Shown here in pieces: positions 34,265-43,248 of a stretch of 64,000 nucleotides of DNA. This DNA comes from Cyanidium caldarium. Lineage: Eukaryota > Rhodophyta > Bangiophyceae > Cyanidiales > Cyanidiaceae. The notes under the pieces were generated by a model. That model saw nothing but the letters and a program-made list of their open reading frames with translations. It had not been told where the DNA came from and searched no databases. The position numbers were made by a program, and so were the translations under genes. Each line of letters begins with the position of its first letter. Positions within the stretch are counted from its first letter, which is position 1. Location: the NCBI GenBank assembly GCA_026184775.1, contig JANCYW010000016.1, positions 62,001 through 126,000 of the forward strand. Reading direction: 5' to 3'.

Positions 34265-37200
34265 ATGCTTCCGACGAGGGTATCATACTCAGATAGTGCG
34301 GGCGTGGCGTGGATTCAGACACCGGTGGGTGTGGGCGGGCGCCCGGTGACCGGACGCCGCGGCGGCCTGGTGTTGCAGGGGCGTGGGCGCGGACGGACGG
34401 CGCTGAGCTCCCGGTTGCATCTGCGGCAGTCGGCCGGCTTTTGGGGCACACCGTGCTTCTCTGGCACACAACCGGCAGCTGCTGTCTCTCCCAGCCACAC
34501 TCCATCACTGTGGAAATTGCAGGCGAGCGCCGCGCCCACTGTGCCCTCCGACGCGGCCATGCGACAGGGGCGCGATCGGGCGAGCTCGGTGGCCGAGCGC
34601 AGCTACCGCGGTGCGCACTACTTTGTGCACAAATTCGGCGGCAGCTCGCTGGCGGATGCGTCCTGTTTCCATCAGGTGACCCGAGTGTTGGAGTCGGTGG
34701 CGGTGGCGGACCAGGCGGAGGTGCAACCGGCGGCCGGCAGCTCGCGCCCGCTGCCCTGTCGGGCGATCGTGGTGGTATCGGCCGTAGCCGGCGTCACCAA
34801 CGCCCTGGAGGAGGCGCTGCAGTGCGCGGTGTCGCGCGACCGCGATGCACATTATCTGGAGAAGTTGGAACAGTTGCGCGAACAGCACGAGTCGCTGGCG
34901 CGCACGCTGCTCTCCTCCGCCGAGGCGCGACAGCCGTTCCTGGCGACGCTCTCCTCGGCCATGACCGACTTGCAGGACCTGCTGCGCGCTGCCTACATCT
35001 CCCGCTCGGCGTCGGACGCGGTGAAGGATCTGGTGCTGGGGTATGGCGAACTGTGGTCGGCGCAGCTGCTGTGGGCGCTGCTGCGGGAACAGCGCAGCGG
35101 TCGCGAGTCGCAGGACGGATCCGGCGGCAACGCCAGCGCGGCCACCACCGGCAGCGTGGCCTGGCTGGATGCGCGCAACGTCATCGTCGCGCACCGCATT
35201 CCCAACCTGCCGCCCGAGCGCAAGGGCATCGACTGGCCGGCGTCGCAGCGGTTGTTCGACGAGTGGATGGGCCAACACGCCTCGGCGGGCACCATTGTGG
35301 TCACTGGCTTTATCGCCTCGGACTCGGAGCAGCACATGCCGACCACGCTGGGGCGCAACGGATCGGATCTGTCGGCGTCGATATTTGCGCGGCTGGTGCA
35401 TTCGCCGGCGTGCACCATATGGACCGATGTGGACGGGGTGTATTCGGCGGATCCGCGTGCCGTGCCCGACGCGGTGGTGATTCCGCGGGTGAGCTTTAAG
35501 GAGGCGGCCGAGCTGGCCTATTTCGGAGCCAAAGTGTTGCACCCGGACACGCTGGCACCGGTGCTGCAGACCGGCATCCCGGTGCGCATCCGCAACACGT
35601 TCCGACCGGAGCGCTCGGGCACCGAAATCGGCCCGTCCCCGCCCAAGAACGCGGACGCCGCAGCGGCGACCGACGCGGCCGACGGCAACAGCCACGACGG
35701 CAAATTGGCCGCGCGCAAAGCGGCGCTGGGCATCACCGCCGGCGTCAAGGGCTTCACTTCGGTGCGCGACATCTCGGTGCTGAATGTGGAGGGCGCGGGC
35801 ATGATCGGGGTACCGGGCATCGCCGGCCGCGCCTTTTCGGCACTCTACGAGGCCGACGTGTCGGTGGTGTTGATCGCGCAGGCGTCGTCCGAGTTTTCCA
35901 TCTGCCTGGCGGTGCCTGGCCGCGACGGCGACCGCGCCGCCGAGGCGTTGCGCCGCGCCTTTCGCTTCGAGCTGGCGGACGGCATCATCAACTCCATCGA
36001 ACTGATTCCGCAGTGCTCCATCGTGGCCATGGTGGGCGAGAACATGCAATTCCAGCCGGGCGTGTCGTCGCGACTGTTCGCCTCGCTGGCCAAGGCGGGC
36101 GTGAACATCCGCGCCATCGCCCAGGGCAGCAGCGAGCACAACATCTCGGTGGTGGTGTTTGCCAGCGATGAGCGGCAGGCGCTGCGCGCCGCACACGCGG
36201 CGTTCTACCTCGGCGACCACGCGATATCGGTGGGCATACTGGGACCGGGGCTGGTGGGCGGCACGCTGGTGGATCAGATCCGCGAGCAGCGCGCCAAGCT
36301 GCGCGACGAGTCTGGGGTGGACTTTCGCATCCGCGCCGTCGCCAACCGCACGCACATGCTGTTGCTGCGCGGCGCGGAGGATGGCGTGTCCGACGGCGAC
36401 CTGGATGCGCAGTGGCGCGAGCTGTTCCAGGCGCGCGGCGAGCCGCTGCAGATGGACCGATTCGTCGCGCACGTGAACGACGGCACGCTGCCGCACGCGG
36501 TGGTGGCCGACTGCACGGCGTCGGAGGAGATCGGCGCGCGCTATGTGGAGTGGTTGCGGGCGGGCGTGAACATCGTCACGCCCAACAAACGCGCCAACAC
36601 CGCTTCGATGGAGTACTACCACGCGCTGCGGGAGGCGCAACGCGCGCGCAACACGCACTTTTTCTATGAGGCCAACGTCGGCGCCGGCCTGCCCATCATC
36701 ACCTCGGTGCGCGACCTGCTGCGCACCGGCGACGCGTTCCTGACCATCGAGGGCATCTTCAGCGGCACGCTGTCGTACATCTTCAACGAGTTCGACGGCA
36801 GCCGGCCGTTCAGCGAGATCGTGCAGCGCGCCAAGGAGCTCGGCTACACCGAACCGGACCCGCGCGAGGACCTCGCGGGCATGGACGTCGCGCGCAAGGT
36901 GGTCATCCTGGGGCGTGAGGTGGGTCTGCGCGTCGAGCTGAGCGATATCGCGGTGCAGAGCTTGGTGCCGGAGTCGCTGAGCCAGGAGAGCGGCGTGTCG
37001 ATCGAGGAGTTTATGCGCCGCCTGCCCGAGCACGACGAGCAGCTGGGGCAGCTGGCCAGCGAGGCGCGCCAGGAGGGCAAGGTGTTACGGTACGTGGGGG
37101 TGGTGGATGTGCAGGCCGGCCGATGTGCGGTGGAGCTGCGGCGCTATCCGGCCACGCACCCGTTCGGCAGCCTGCAGGGCAGCGATAACATCGTCAGTTT

Positions 37201-37330
37201 CCGCACGGTGCGCTACGACGCGCAGCCGTTGGTGGTGCGCGGGCCGGGCGCGGGCGCCGCGGTGACCGCAGCCGGCGTGTTTGCGGATCTGTTGCGGTTG
37301 GCGGCGCATCTGGGCGCGCCCAGCGGGTAA
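34265..37330 (+). CDS. Bifunctional aspartokinase / homoserine dehydrogenase
   Basis: Catalyses the first and third steps of threonine, methionine and isoleucine synthesis, in the plastid in plants. The aspartokinase domain begins at about residue 120 (VHKFGGSSLADAS; VVVSAVAGVTNALEE; WTDVDGVYSADPRAV; FKEAAELAYFGAKVLHPDTL). Two ACT repeats follow (SVLNVEGAGMIGVPGIAGRA and SIVAMVGENMQFQPGVSSRL), the threonine-feedback module. The homoserine dehydrogenase domain runs from about residue 656 (VGILGPGLVGGTLVD; TPNKRANTA; EANVGAGLPIITSVRDLL; EGIFSGTLSYIFNEF; ELGYTEPDPREDLAGMDVAR). The first about 110 residues are Arg/Ser/Gly-rich and act as a likely plastid leader, which supports the ATG at 34265. 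At 1021 residues it is full length. The stop is 25 bases from the convergent DUF726 gene. Confidence 0.95.
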   Translation: MLPTRVSYSDSAGVAWIQTPVGVGGRPVTGRRGGLVLQGRGRGRTALSSRLHLRQSAGFWGTPCFSGTQPAAAVSPSHTPSLWKLQASAAPTVPSDAAMRQGRDRASSVAERSYRGAHYFVHKFGGSSLADASCFHQVTRVLESVAVADQAEVQPAAGSSRPLPCRAIVVVSAVAGVTNALEEALQCAVSRDRDAHYLEKLEQLREQHESLARTLLSSAEARQPFLATLSSAMTDLQDLLRAAYISRSASDAVKDLVLGYGELWSAQLLWALLREQRSGRESQDGSGGNASAATTGSVAWLDARNVIVAHRIPNLPPERKGIDWPASQRLFDEWMGQHASAGTIVVTGFIASDSEQHMPTTLGRNGSDLSASIFARLVHSPACTIWTDVDGVYSADPRAVPDAVVIPRVSFKEAAELAYFGAKVLHPDTLAPVLQTGIPVRIRNTFRPERSGTEIGPSPPKNADAAAATDAADGNSHDGKLAARKAALGITAGVKGFTSVRDISVLNVEGAGMIGVPGIAGRAFSALYEADVSVVLIAQASSEFSICLAVPGRDGDRAAEALRRAFRFELADGIINSIELIPQCSIVAMVGENMQFQPGVSSRLFASLAKAGVNIRAIAQGSSEHNISVVVFASDERQALRAAHAAFYLGDHAISVGILGPGLVGGTLVDQIREQRAKLRDESGVDFRIRAVANRTHMLLLRGAEDGVSDGDLDAQWRELFQARGEPLQMDRFVAHVNDGTLPHAVVADCTASEEIGARYVEWLRAGVNIVTPNKRANTASMEYYHALREAQRARNTHFFYEANVGAGLPIITSVRDLLRTGDAFLTIEGIFSGTLSYIFNEFDGSRPFSEIVQRAKELGYTEPDPREDLAGMDVARKVVILGREVGLRVELSDIAVQSLVPESLSQESGVSIEEFMRRLPEHDEQLGQLASEARQEGKVLRYVGVVDVQAGRCAVELRRYPATHPFGSLQGSDNIVSFRTVRYDAQPLVVRGPGAGAAVTAAGVFADLLRLAAHLGAPSG

Positions 37331-37355: not shown

Positions 37356-40300
37356 TTAGGCAGGCGCGTCGGGTGCGGGGCCAGATTCGTACAGCACCGA
37401 CCGTCGCGCTTCCGGCCGCTCGTCGGCGGGCGTCTCCGGCCCCGGTCGGGGGTGCGACCGCCCCCACCACTTACCCTTCCGCCTGCTCTTCTTCTCCTCC
37501 TCCGCCTCGTCGGTGTCAAAGGCGCCGCGCTCGCAGGCCATGCGACTCGCCGGCACCACCGCCGACAGCCGCTGCGCACCCAGCATATCGCGCACGCTGA
37601 CCTCCAGGTTGCCGTGCGCGTCCAGCGCCAACGTCAGTTCGATGCGGGCGGTGCCGGCGCGTCCGCGACCCTGCAGCGCGCTGCTGGCGAACCCTTGGAA
37701 CTCCAGCATGCGCAGCAGGCGGTGGTCGCGCCGCGCCCGCTTGGCACCCAGCGCGCGCAGCTGCTTCTTCTCGCCCTGATAAACGAACAGCGACACGGAC
37801 TCCTGGTGGTCGGCACAGGTGGTCAGCACCACGGTGCGCTCACAGGGCATGCGGGTGCCGGCGGCGATCACCGGCAAAAAGTGACCGCCGGCAGTCTCGA
37901 TGCCCAGCGAGTGCACCAGCGTGTTGGCACCGGCAGCGGTGGTGCTCAGCGGTTGCACCGACTGGAAGTCGGTCCATTCGGCGTCGACATCCGCTGCCTC
38001 TGTGTCGTCTTCATCATGATCGCGCATGGGTGCATCCAGAATGGCGTCGAACGACAGGTTGGCCGCTCGGCCAGCACGTGACGCCCGGCTCTCCGCCTGT
38101 ATACCTTCGGCTTTGCCGTCGACGTCCACGTCGATCAGCGACGTTGCCTCGGCTGCGGCAGCAACGTCGCCAGCCTCTCGCTGGCCACTTTCCGACGTAT
38201 CCTCCTCGCGCAACAACCACCCGCGCGCCTCCCGGCCCTCCTCCTGCCGCTCATCGTCCGAGTCGACGTACTTGTCGCGGCGCCATGCGCGACCGCGCTC
38301 ATCGGTGACCATCCGCCGTGCTCGCCGCCCTCGCCCCCGCCGTTTGCCCTTCTTCCTATGGCCCTTGGCACCTGTCCTGGCCTCTGCCGCGCCCCCTTCC
38401 GCGCCGTTTTCCTCCTCCGATCCTTCGCTTCCCATTCCCATCCGATAGCGCGCGCTCTCCTCCTCTTCATGCAACAGCTCCACATCCCGCAACAGAATCG
38501 GCGGAAAGCTCAACCGCCCGGTCTCCACGCCGAGCGCCGTCAGGATGCGCGGCAGCGCCTCGCGCAACTCCCGATGGCCCTGCAGCCCCAACAGCGCCAG
38601 ATTCACATTCTCCACGCGACCGCCGCAGTGTCGTATCGGCGCGAGGCCGGCCACCCGGAACTCGCCGCTGGAACCGCGGTGGAACAGCGCCAACGCCCAG
38701 TCGGTGCCGCAGTAGGCATTGACCAGGCGGCCGGCCACCGCGCGCGAGGCGCGCAACCAGCGCCGCCCGTCGCCGGTGCACGGCGCCCCGATCAAGTACG
38801 CCTCGTCCACCACGCCGTACACCCCGGCTTCCGCCAACGCCTCCAGGCACTTGAACACCACTCGGGCGCCATGCGAGTACCCGATCAGCGTGACCGGCCG
38901 CTGACCGTGCTCCCGCAGCGCCAACACATCCGCCAGAGCGTCGCCGGCGGCGTTGGCCCGGTTCAGCAGCACCGACCACGGGCCGTCCACCGCATCGGCC
39001 GCCGAGTACACCGCCAGCGGCCAGGCGATGGACGACACCAGCGCGCCGGCCGCCATCGATAACCCCTGGAAAACATACGGCGCCGCCTGTTGCGCCGCCG
39101 AGGTGGCCGCTTTGGTGGTCCAGAATTTGAAAAAGGCGCGACCCATCTCATACAACTGGCGCGGCTCCCAGCGCAACGCGTAGCGCTCGGCGCAGCGCAA
39201 CAGCCGGCCGTTGCCGATCGACCGGTAAAACTGCGATGCGCACGCACCCTCTTGGTACGATTTGGTCAGCCAGCCGGGCACGAACAGCGCCACCTGCAGT
39301 CCGTGCGGTGCATCCAGCGGGGATGCAGCAGTCGGTGGCGGTGGCGGCATCGCTGCCGGGGTGGCCGGCGCCATTGCCGCGGATGACGGCGGTAACGCAT
39401 TCGATGCTAACGAATCGCTCGCGGCAGGACGGTCGGCCTGGTTGGCGCGCAATGCCGCCACGGCCGCTGCGTGTTTGACCACGTCTTTGGAGCCGTGATA
39501 CGGGCGCGGTTCGGCCCCCGAAGACGCGCCCTTCTTGCGGCGCACCCACGGGCGCAAGTACCGCCGCCAGCTGGATTTCGATTTGCGGGCGTGACTGCCG
39601 CCATCCGCCGCCGATGTGTCTGCTCGGAACGCCTTGGCATCACCATCGCCATCATCGCGGGCACCCTGGCCGCGCAACGCCGCCACCGCCTGGCGCTCCA
39701 TCACATCGCTGTGCTCGGCGTCGTCTGAGTCGGCGGGCGTGCTCTCGTCGGGCGCCTCCGATGTCGATGTCTCTTGCGATGGACGTTCAGCGGGATCGTG
39801 CTCCAGCTCGCGCAGAGCCCGCTCCACCTCATCGCGCAGGATTGCCTGGGCGCCGGCGGACACTTCGGGCGCCTCATCGGCGGGTGCGTTCGCGGAGGTC
39901 CGGCTCGGCGTCGACAGCTCCGTCACCGGGGGCAACGGCGGCGACGACGAGGTCGTCGATGGCGCCGGTTCCGTGGCTGCCGGTTGGCATTTGGCGCTGG
40001 CATACTCTTCGATGCCCAGCGGCTCCAAGTCGAAATCGGTGAGGCGCATGCGCGTGCGCTTGCGGGCCTTGTGTCCGATGTAACCGGCGCCGAGGCCGCC
40101 GAAAAAGCTGGCCACCACCGCGCCCGACGCTACGGTGCCGGTGGCCGCCAGCGTACTCGCGCCGGTGATGCCGATGCCCACCAGCGCCGGCAGCAACAGC
40201 GGGGCGGCCAGTGCCCCGGCCAGCCCAAACACCGCACCGCCGCCGAGGGCGATGGCGACCACTTTCAGCGCCCGGCGGCGCGATTTCTTCTTGTAGCGCT

Positions 40301-41780
40301 TTTTGGCACGTTCGGCGTAGTCGTCGCCGGTGAATTCGGACAAGAGCGCGTCCGGGCCGGCGCCGTCCTCACGCTCGCCGGCAGCGAACAGGCCGCGCAA
40401 ACCCGGCGCGCCCGTCGGCGACTGCTGCGCCAGCTGCCCCTGATGCACCAGCAGCGCGGCCACCGCCAGCTCGGCCATGGCCACCTGCCGCCAGGGCACT
40501 TTCATCTCCAACGAGGCGCGCCGCAGGAATGCCCGGCTGCGGGCATCGTACACCCCCGTCGAGAGCGACAGCGTCAGCAGCGCCTGCAGCGCACCGAAAC
40601 GCGCGGGCACGTCGCCCACCAGCGCTACCGTAGCGTCGATGAGCGCGCGACGCTGGTCACGCGTCACATTCCCGTTGACGCACTCGCTCAACAGATAGAG
40701 GATCGACTCGCGTTGGGTGTCGCTCAGCTCCAGTCCCGACAGCAACAGGCGGGTGTAGCGCTCCTCGAAAGTGGCGTCGGGCAGGGAAGAGGGGAACGGG
40801 TGCGCCTTGCCGACCGCAGAAGCCGCAGAGGTGACCGAGCGCGTCCCCGAGTCGATGTTGCTATCGTCGGACGCGTCATCGAGGGGTGGTGAGGCCGGCG
40901 GGTGATCGTCAGGCCGGTGCCTATGTGCGATAGAGCGTAGTCGCTGCGCCGCCGATGACGTCCCCATTGGTATCGTCTCGATGTGCGACTCCGCAGTCTC
41001 CTGCTCATCGTGCGCGATGGGGTGCAGTCGCGGCGCTGCCGATGACGTCTCCACAGGTACCGTCTCGACACGAGGTTCGGTAGTCTTGTCATCACGCACC
41101 GCCTCCTGTTCCTCCTTGGGTTGTTTCCCTTGATGCCCGCCTTTGCGGTTGGCGCGCCGCTGCTCCGCTTCGCGATCCTGCTGTTGTCGCTCGCGTCGCA
41201 GTGTATCCGCCTCGATCTCCTTCTCGGCAATCACCGTCACGATAAACGTGCCCAGACTGTAGCGCTGTTCGCGGTCCAACGACTCCAGACCCGGATGCAC
41301 CGCTGCCGTCGTGTCCGTGTCCGAGGCACTCGGGACGTTGGACGGCCCGCCCAGCGACAAGACATCGAGGCGCTGGGCCACCTCTCCATCGGTGCCCGCC
41401 AGGGCGCTCTTCTCACTGGCGTCCAAAGTGTTGATCAGCGCATCAAACTCCTCCTCGATGTCGTAATCGTCGTCCTCCAGCGTCAACCAGTCGTCCTGCA
41501 CCGCGCGCTCGCCCTCGCCCGACCGAAACGTCAGCGTCCGCTCCGGCTCCACGTACGTCTCCTCGCGGTACGGCGCCACCGCCCCGTGCCACAACGGTGG
41601 CGGCGGCAGCGCCGACAGCCCCGACGCTCCATTCCATCGGTCGTCTGCTGTAAAGCGGGGCAAGTCGTCCACGCCATCGTCCGCCGCCTCCTTGCCGGCC
41701 TCCGCGACACCCTCTCGTCCCGAAGAAGCAGCTTGCGTTCGATGCGCCCCAGAGTCAGCCTCTTCACCCGACGGAGACAT
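37356..41780 (-). CDS. DUF726/TMCO4-like hydrolase fused to an Hsp70-type substrate-binding domain
   Basis: 1474 residues. The first about 450 are charged and Ser/Glu-rich. A helical region follows (LLLSGLELSDTQRESILYLL), then the DUF726 membrane and hydrolase core: Gly/Ala-rich spans (GGGAVFGLAGALAAPLLLPA), then VALFVPGWLTKSYQEGACAS and the nucleophile elbow LIGYSHGARVVF near residue 965, with YLIGAPCTGDGRRW after it. This is the fungal Mil1 / animal TMCO4 family. After a basic linker (RKKGKRRGRGRRARRM), residues about 1290-1410 read HSLGIETAGGHFLPVIAAGT, VSLFVYQGEKK, LEFQGFASSALQGRG and IELTLALDAHGNLEVSVRD: the Hsp70 beta-sandwich substrate-binding domain, without the ATPase domain. Start MSPSGEEADSG. 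Activity and client are unknown. Confidence 0.85.
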   Translation of the reverse strand: MSPSGEEADSGAHRTQAASSGREGVAEAGKEAADDGVDDLPRFTADDRWNGASGLSALPPPPLWHGAVAPYREETYVEPERTLTFRSGEGERAVQDDWLTLEDDDYDIEEEFDALINTLDASEKSALAGTDGEVAQRLDVLSLGGPSNVPSASDTDTTAAVHPGLESLDREQRYSLGTFIVTVIAEKEIEADTLRRERQQQDREAEQRRANRKGGHQGKQPKEEQEAVRDDKTTEPRVETVPVETSSAAPRLHPIAHDEQETAESHIETIPMGTSSAAQRLRSIAHRHRPDDHPPASPPLDDASDDSNIDSGTRSVTSAASAVGKAHPFPSSLPDATFEERYTRLLLSGLELSDTQRESILYLLSECVNGNVTRDQRRALIDATVALVGDVPARFGALQALLTLSLSTGVYDARSRAFLRRASLEMKVPWRQVAMAELAVAALLVHQGQLAQQSPTGAPGLRGLFAAGEREDGAGPDALLSEFTGDDYAERAKKRYKKKSRRRALKVVAIALGGGAVFGLAGALAAPLLLPALVGIGITGASTLAATGTVASGAVVASFFGGLGAGYIGHKARKRTRMRLTDFDLEPLGIEEYASAKCQPAATEPAPSTTSSSPPLPPVTELSTPSRTSANAPADEAPEVSAGAQAILRDEVERALRELEHDPAERPSQETSTSEAPDESTPADSDDAEHSDVMERQAVAALRGQGARDDGDGDAKAFRADTSAADGGSHARKSKSSWRRYLRPWVRRKKGASSGAEPRPYHGSKDVVKHAAAVAALRANQADRPAASDSLASNALPPSSAAMAPATPAAMPPPPPTAASPLDAPHGLQVALFVPGWLTKSYQEGACASQFYRSIGNGRLLRCAERYALRWEPRQLYEMGRAFFKFWTTKAATSAAQQAAPYVFQGLSMAAGALVSSIAWPLAVYSAADAVDGPWSVLLNRANAAGDALADVLALREHGQRPVTLIGYSHGARVVFKCLEALAEAGVYGVVDEAYLIGAPCTGDGRRWLRASRAVAGRLVNAYCGTDWALALFHRGSSGEFRVAGLAPIRHCGGRVENVNLALLGLQGHRELREALPRILTALGVETGRLSFPPILLRDVELLHEEEESARYRMGMGSEGSEEENGAEGGAAEARTGAKGHRKKGKRRGRGRRARRMVTDERGRAWRRDKYVDSDDERQEEGREARGWLLREEDTSESGQREAGDVAAAAEATSLIDVDVDGKAEGIQAESRASRAGRAANLSFDAILDAPMRDHDEDDTEAADVDAEWTDFQSVQPLSTTAAGANTLVHSLGIETAGGHFLPVIAAGTRMPCERTVVLTTCADHQESVSLFVYQGEKKQLRALGAKRARRDHRLLRMLEFQGFASSALQGRGRAGTARIELTLALDAHGNLEVSVRDMLGAQRLSAVVPASRMACERGAFDTDEAEEEKKSRRKGKWWGRSHPRPGPETPADERPEARRSVLYESGPAPDAPA
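37553..37913 (-). other. Hsp70 substrate-binding-domain segment within the DUF726 protein
   Basis: Encodes the block homologous to the Hsp70 pattern SLGIETAGGxxxxLIPRNTxIP ... VxIxVYEGER ... ELxGIPPAPRG ... IEVTFDIDANGILNVSAxD. The order and spacing of strands are kept and no stop separates it from the hydrolase. The connecting linker is acidic and ends NTLVHSLGIETAGG. Confidence 0.85.
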
Positions 41781-41997
41781 GTCCCAGACGCACCCACGCT
41801 ACGTCTCTCCCCGGTATCCCTCACTCCTGGTATCACCCCTTCCACTCCCGGTGATGGACCCCGGGCGACAGCACCGCCCTCTCCAAGAATCCGCTGTCGC
41901 TGCAAGCCGCGCGACCCAAAGCGGAGTCGGTTGCCTGCAGGCATTCGGCACCCGCTCCACACGCTGCGCTCGGGAGGAGCGGTGTCGGAGAGGCGTC

Positions 41998-43248
41998 ATG
42001 TTTGTGGCCACCATAGCGGGGGCCAGTTTTGGAGGTTTGGCTACGGCACTGCAGTTGCAGCGGCGCGGTGTGGTGCCGTTCTCGGTGTTGGATGCATCCG
42101 ACGGTCCGCCGACGGCGCAAGTCGGTGCCCATGCGGTCGGGCTGTGGACCAACGCTTGGTGGGTGTTGGACGCGTTGGGAGTGGGCGAGCGGGCACGCGA
42201 ATGCTGCCGGTGTCGCGCTGACGTGTTTCGGGTGGGCGATATGGGCAGCGAGTTGGCGGACGGGCGGTGGGTGCGGCGGGCGTTTGCCGCCCCCGCCGAG
42301 CACGAGTTTCGACGGGTGCGCTCCGGCGACGTGATGCAAGCGATGCGCGACGCGTTGACCGGCGCGTCCATAGAGTATGGTGGTCGTATTGAGGATCGCC
42401 TGGATGAAATCGGCCGCCGATCGGGCGAGCCGACTTTGGTGGTGGGCGCCGATGGCGCCGACTCGTTCGTGCGGCGGCAGCTGCTGCGACGCGATGCCAC
42501 ACCGCGATATGCCGGGTATGTGGCGCACCGCGGCATTGCCCGCATACCGTGGCGAGCACCGAATATGTCGGATTCGCCATCGACTGCCGCGCTGGACGCA
42601 CCGGGGTGTGTGACGCTGTTGTTAGGCCGCGGCGACGGCACCCGCATCGGCGTACAGCGCATGGACGATGAGCGGGTGTTCTGGTTCGGCTGTGAGAATG
42701 TGCACCAGAGTCAGCTGGACACGCTTCCGTCGCCGCTGGAGCGCATGGCGTCGCTCACCGCCGCACCGTCGCGCCTCTCCAGCAGCATGCGTGCCGCAGT
42801 GCAACAGCTGCTGCAGGCCACCCCGTCGGAAGACGCCTCCACCGCACGGTGTCGCGATCTCTTCCCGCCGGTATTCCAGGGCATATGCCCGGCGCGCAAC
42901 GTGCTGGCGGCGTTGGTGGGCGATGCCGCGCACCCGTGCACGCCCAATCTGTCTCAGGGCGTGGGGCTGGCGCTGGAGGACGGATACGCGCTGGCCAACC
43001 TGCTCAGCAATGCCTACGCGGCCCGCCGTCGCAGCGCCGCAGACTTGGCAGTGGTGCTGCGTGCGTACCAACGCCAGCGTGCCCGACGCGTCGCCACGGT
43101 GATGCTGCGCTCGCGTCTGGTCGGAGCGGCCCTGCAAATGGAGCTGCCGCCGCCGCTGGTCGCCCTGCGCAACCGCCTGGCCATCCCGCTCGCACTGCGA
43201 CCGCAGTCATTTGTGTCGCATGCCCGGCTACCCATACCTGCACAGTAA
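41998..43248 (+). CDS. FAD-dependent monooxygenase
   Basis: Class A flavoprotein monooxygenase (PHBH fold) that would hydroxylate or epoxidise a small hydrophobic or aromatic substrate with NAD(P)H. The dinucleotide motif is at the N-terminus (VATIAGASFGGLATALQLQR), a DG motif is at VVGADGADSFVRRQLL, and the GD motif with the flavin ribityl loop is at GDAAHPCTPNLSQGVGLALE (about residue 307). These features also fit zeaxanthin-epoxidase-like and salicylate-hydroxylase-like enzymes, which cannot be separated here. I took the ATG at 41998 (416 residues) because it places the GxGxxG-like motif at the usual distance. No clear transit peptide follows from this start. Divergent from the DUF726 gene, 217 bases apart. 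Confidence 0.8.
   Translation: MFVATIAGASFGGLATALQLQRRGVVPFSVLDASDGPPTAQVGAHAVGLWTNAWWVLDALGVGERARECCRCRADVFRVGDMGSELADGRWVRRAFAAPAEHEFRRVRSGDVMQAMRDALTGASIEYGGRIEDRLDEIGRRSGEPTLVVGADGADSFVRRQLLRRDATPRYAGYVAHRGIARIPWRAPNMSDSPSTAALDAPGCVTLLLGRGDGTRIGVQRMDDERVFWFGCENVHQSQLDTLPSPLERMASLTAAPSRLSSSMRAAVQQLLQATPSEDASTARCRDLFPPVFQGICPARNVLAALVGDAAHPCTPNLSQGVGLALEDGYALANLLSNAYAARRRSAADLAVVLRAYQRQRARRVATVMLRSRLVGAALQMELPPPLVALRNRLAIPLALRPQSFVSHARLPIPAQ

Follow-up and report, generated by a model that had tools for sequence, protein, structure and literature searches.

A gene in the window analysed here, a stretch of 64,000 nucleotides of Cyanidium caldarium (contig JANCYW010000016.1, positions 62,001 to 126,000), encodes an alpha/beta-hydrolase of the DUF726 family whose C-terminal part resembles the substrate-binding domain (SBD) beta of Hsp70 chaperones. 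Sequence profiles taken together with predicted folds show that TMCO4/Mil1-type hydrolases carry a C-terminal SBD-beta across the sampled red-algal clade. The reading that we favour, at little short of an even chance, is that the domain was gained once by an ancestor and acts as an ATP-independent peptide clamp that would recruit the hydrolase through a partner. The substrate-binding domain of Hsp70 is familiar as a component driven by its own ATPase, and a conserved stand-alone SBD on an enzyme would show that the Hsp70 clamp is able to serve as a recruitment module like any other. The fusion would also offer a handle on what the TMCO4/Mil1 family acts upon and how it is targeted, and Cyanidioschyzon merolae is transformable.

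Identification of the Hsp70 domain

The frame runs on the minus strand from an ATG at 41780 to a stop at 37356 through 1474 uninterrupted codons, so that the unbroken passage from DUF726 into an Hsp70 SBD described in an earlier note on this DNA was confirmed. As the GC content of the window is 66%, and other long open frames occur on both strands, an open frame on its own is weak evidence of coding. The stretch encoding the SBD nevertheless behaves as coding: its GC content at third codon positions (GC3), 0.88, equals that of the hydrolase core, and it is conserved in two relatives. In P0002, 126 of 127 SBD residues are identical, as are 157 of 175 in the preceding linker, while P0003 shows 61% identity in the SBD and 31% in the linker. 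A chance open frame or a mis-join of genes was rejected on account of conservation in 16 proteins.

By its sequence signature and predicted beta-sandwich fold, the segment of residues 1286–1412 is an Hsp70 SBD-beta. The Pfam HSP70 profile matched residues 1291–1414 (E 2.4e-6, 26.5 bits, the curated cut-off being 20.6) with its positions 393–501 of 599 only, which correspond to SBD-beta, and the NCBIfam DnaK equivalog gave 45.9 bits over residues 1291–1405, against a cut-off of 822.55. The sequence search of the PDB returned 62 distinct sequences with E ≤ 10, the best being the Kar2 SBD (3h0x, E 1.2e-9). Among the best 60 of these 62, 59 carry Hsp70-family names, including an 'import motor subunit' that we take to be an Hsp70, and the remaining one is named 'putative uncharacterized protein'. 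A convergent beta-sandwich was ruled out by the independent sequence profiles. The Hsp70 domain that the earlier note placed at residues 1280–1420 was thus found there by significant matches and predicted fold, although its limits had to be corrected to approximately 1286–1412.

The absence of the Hsp70 ATPase, claimed in the same note, also held: no Pfam match to the nucleotide-binding (actin-like ATPase) domain was found in the window protein, nor was the hydrophobic interdomain linker found there before SLGIE. In the Hsp70s of the same genome this linker reads DVTPL (cytosolic and mitochondrial-type) or DVAPL (BiP-type). A full Hsp70 lid was not seen. The Pfam match ends at profile position 501 in the window protein and reaches 558 in P0029 and 555 in P0010, in which a remnant of the lid helix may persist. 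With no ATPase and apparently no full lid, the SBD would be unable to run the Hsp70 cycle.

Hydrolase domain

The assignment to DUF726 with a serine elbow was borne out by Pfam (PF05277, E 4.8e-73, 246.5 bits against a cut-off of 22.6, main stretch 852–1085). The putative catalytic residues are S969 in GYSHG (967–971), D1027 in GTDWAL and H1069 in GLQGH, which probably form the catalytic triad; their columns are kept in most of the 35 DUF726 proteins aligned. The nucleophile serine is retained in 32 of the 35; the exceptions P0022, P0024 and P0035, all from outside the red-algal clade, have SHGMG, GATLG and GYGPG, respectively, at the elbow and are possibly pseudo-enzymes.

The most hydrophobic 19-residue windows of the glycine-rich hairpin lie at residues 504–546. 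The label 'membrane-associated', which the earlier note gave to the enzyme, is not established, since TMCO4 seems to lack a transmembrane element by DeepTMHMM, according to the survey PMC11878206.

Distribution and origin of the fusion

The DUF726 set comprised 34 relatives retrieved by protein searches (P0002–P0035) and the window's own protein. A tail profile built from 11 tails (A3 and A4), with E-values calculated over 40 sequences, detected the SBD in 16 of these 35 proteins (P0001–P0004, P0006–P0014 and P0027–P0029) with E ≤ 1.5e-26, the next DUF726 protein being P0035 with E 0.06. Eleven of the 16 matches were themselves sources of the profile; P0002, P0008, P0027, P0028 and P0029 were not. 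Source names among the 16 include Galdieria partita, G. sulphuraria, G. phlegrea (so labelled by JGI) and Porphyridium purpureum. The 19 proteins without the SBD consist of 18 from outside the red-algal clade and P0005, a Cyanidiococcus yangmingshanensis model that turns to unrelated sequence inside the hydrolase and then ends, so that no tail can be seen in its database entry.

The hydrolase tree placed the 16 proteins and P0005 in one group (support 98/99) with three subgroups: Galdieria, window/Cyanidiococcus and the Porphyridium group. The tree was rooted at the midpoint for drawing only and includes several long outgroup branches, and P0004, P0005, P0011, P0012 and P0032 entered with longer regions before column trimming. 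The tail label requires two changes on this tree if P0005 is scored as tail-less. The simplest reading of these sequences is that the SBD was gained once, before the sampled lineages split, with P0005 as the sole exception.

The domain has diverged in sequence. The Pfam HSP70 cut-off was passed by 8 of the 16 (P0001, P0002, P0003, P0007–P0010 and P0029, the last being the most Hsp70-like with 45.3 bits), P0004 fell just under it (20.1 bits), and seven gave no match. Profile A3, made from five of these seven Pfam-negative tails, picked out Hsp70 SBDs among PDB sequences (lowest E 3.9e-8, the first non-Hsp70 row shown being at E 0.17) and matched the Cyanidiophyceae tail profile with a probability of 98.4% (E 5.8e-15). 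Identity of the SBD is 26% between the window protein and Galdieria P0008, and likewise for Porphyridium P0012. The comparisons disagree on the source of the SBD among Hsp70s: the red-tail profile scored 70 bits with the genome's BiP-type Hsp70, 57 with the cytosolic, 51 with the mitochondrial and 3 and 2 with the Hsp110/170-like proteins, while other comparisons, the NCBIfam DnaK match among them, favour DnaK.

The fusion, which the earlier note proposed to look for in other Cyanidiophyceae, is present there and also in Porphyridium, and is thus a trait of a red-algal branch, not a local novelty. A novelty of Cyanidiophyceae only was ruled out, as the tail is carried by Porphyridium and by seven further proteins of its branch. 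The three protein searches covered limited length ranges, and two of them scored only those candidates that had the most words in common with the query. No result of the relative searches bears the name of Porphyra, Chondrus or a secondary alga, and no test was aimed at these. A homology search with the SBD only returned P0002 alone at E ≤ 10, though P0003 and P0004 have the SBD, so that misses there do not equal absence.

All four Galdieria-type proteins (P0007–P0010) carry an IQ calmodulin-binding motif C-terminal of the SBD, and in the model of P0010 a long C-terminal helix includes this motif. It suggests calcium/calmodulin control of the clamp in this group.

Peptide pocket and proposed function

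Pocket positions, given in DnaK numbering, were compared over the 16 SBD-bearing proteins. Positions 399, 412, 426, 436, 438, 440 and 474 are hydrophobic in 16/16 and position 472 in 15/16, position 401 is I, V or C, and Q433 is invariant. V407 in loop L1,2 is replaced by Arg in 14 proteins and by His in two.

The SBD may be a flexibly tethered peptide clamp that is constitutive, ATP-independent and almost without a lid; in its most likely working state it would stay open at all times and accept a short aliphatic segment. The clamp would grip such a segment in a partner and thereby carry the hydrolase to the membrane or the substrate on which it acts. The most likely partner is a specific recruiter or cargo, and not misfolded protein generally. 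In HeLa cells, human TMCO4, called an orphan lipase, is recruited to the endoplasmic reticulum (ER) by RAB18 (PMC10641524), so partner-driven recruitment is known in the TMCO4 family. The red-algal clamp could be a built-in counterpart of this separate recruiter. It is possible, though we hold it with some doubt, that the clamp, released from control by ATP, was already in the ancestor of the sampled red algae, and has been ever since, a dedicated targeting device of a TMCO4-family lipase that reads a specific aliphatic motif. It would then be an Hsp70-derived linear-motif reader and not a chaperone.

Several observations weigh against a recruiting clamp. Residue I472 is Ser in P0029, and the arch positions differ in most proteins from those of DnaK (position 404, A or T in 16/16; position 429, C in eight, F in four, A in three and G in one). 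The kept pocket hydrophobics do not prove peptide binding because they overlap with the fold core. The RAB18 result comes from human cells, and a similar need in algae is assumed. The full-length model of Galdieria P0010 is weak (pLDDT 57.1, pTM 0.53), with low confidence in its SBD (block means 30–58 over residues 951–1060), and therefore supports neither the SBD fold there nor a domain arrangement; when this model was used to search for similar folds, nothing reached E ≤ 0.001, the best being hornet phospholipase A1 (E 3.7e-3).

In an alternative reading, the SBD-like sandwich would have lost its grip on foreign peptides and be structural or regulatory, docking on its own hydrolase or tether (e.g., to keep the enzyme inactive) or mediating dimerisation. 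Such a role, which we regard as plausible without being probable, is consistent with the divergence of the SBD (26% identity to P0008 and P0012), the Arg/His of loop L1,2 in 16/16, the missing Pfam match in 7/16, and aliphatic stretches in the tether that we judge to be a possible internal ligand. However, seven pocket positions are hydrophobic in all 16 proteins, Q433 is invariant, and the long variable tether speaks against fixed docking. The earlier note had proposed that the domain directs the enzyme to substrates that are unfolded or hydrophobic; recognition of a specific recruitment motif, or a contact within the molecule, is no less conceivable. A general client binder, a role close to that proposal, would hold proteins that are unfolded or aggregated, and perhaps lipidated, at membranes that are hot and acidic, for de-acylation or clearance by the hydrolase. 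Hsp70 SBDs bind hydrophobic peptides promiscuously, and Cyanidiophyceae inhabit hot acid. Porphyridium, however, is a mesophile and also carries the SBD, which is thus not an adaptation to heat or acid; moreover, the protein has no ATPase to power client release, and proteins are not expected substrates of a lipase-type enzyme. We consider this role unlikely. An artefact, whether a chance fusion of two adjacent genes in a genome rich in GC and poor in stop codons or an error of assembly or annotation, would fit the GC content and the other long frames of the window, but 16 proteins, which represent several lineages and come from several data sources, have the same domain order, the SBD of P0002 is nearly identical, and the GC3 of the SBD equals that of the hydrolase, which makes it very unlikely indeed.

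Comparison with known systems

The red-algal protein shares with DUF726/TMCO4/Mil1 (Yfl034w) the hydrolase core, the glycine-rich hydrophobic hairpin, the S-D-H columns and the tree, while the SBD is lacking in 18/18 retrieved members outside the red-algal clade. Section 2.5.13 of PMC11878206 lists DUF726 fusions with Gta3, the Pex14 N-terminal domain and TRAM/radical SAM/fucosyltransferase, and not with Hsp70. No description of a DUF726–Hsp70 fusion or of a red-algal stand-alone Hsp70 SBD was found in the literature searched. Precomputed PF00012 and PF05277 labels are already placed on Galdieria proteins in the protein database searched, so the architecture is machine-visible, though undescribed in those papers.

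With the SBD-beta of DnaK, BiP/Kar2 and HscA the domain has in common the predicted fold, the LGIE...P...TT...D.Q signature and the hydrophobic pocket positions. Unlike these Hsp70s, the red-algal protein has no nucleotide-binding domain and no DVTPL-type linker, and its SBD has Arg/His in loop L1,2 and no full lid that could be seen. Specific recognition is seen in HscA–IscU (PDB 1u00), but HscA retains the ATPase that the red-algal protein lacks, and no partner motif is known for the latter.

Domain anatomy and genomic context

Table 1. Features of the DUF726–SBD gene in the window.
Feature	Residues	Position	Strand	Basis or remark
Whole coding frame	1–1474	37356..41780	-	1474 aa + stop; DUF726 hydrolase, Hsp70 SBD-beta at C-terminus
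Probably helical region before hairpin	331–500	40281..40790	-	Identity to P0003 and Galdieria model
Gly-rich hydrophobic hairpin	501–580	40041..40280	-	91% identical to P0003; overlaps N-terminal DUF726 match
Alpha/beta-hydrolase core of DUF726	826–1110	38451..39305	-	Pfam, motif columns in 35 proteins, tree
Poorly conserved, probably disordered tether	1111–1285 (175 residues)	37926..38450	-	Identity and Galdieria P0010 model
Hsp70 substrate-binding domain beta	1286–1412	37545..37925	-	Pfam, NCBIfam, PDB, profiles, predicted fold
Charged C-terminal tail	1413–1474	37359..37544	-	Occupies place of full Hsp70 lid

Identity to P0003 is 26% over residues 1–330, 47% over 331–470 and 37% over 471–500, and the part of the Galdieria model that should match residues 331–500 is helical. 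Identity of the tether falls to 17% with Galdieria P0008, and the P0010 model has pLDDT <50 over most of the matching stretch.

The scan of the genome (8.79 Mb in 20 contigs), in which gene counts are lower bounds, revealed at least one DUF726 gene and at least five further HSP70-family genes, which we take to be mitochondrial, cytosolic, BiP, Hsp110-like and ER Hsp170-like. Among the HSP70-family matches listed for the genome, only the window frame has the SBD without the rest of Hsp70.

The convergent neighbour (34265–37330, plus strand) encodes a bifunctional aspartokinase–homoserine dehydrogenase according to Pfam and ends 25 bases from the stop codon of the DUF726 gene. The divergent neighbour (41995–43248, plus strand, start guessed) is FAD-binding monooxygenase-like (PF01494, 33.4 bits).
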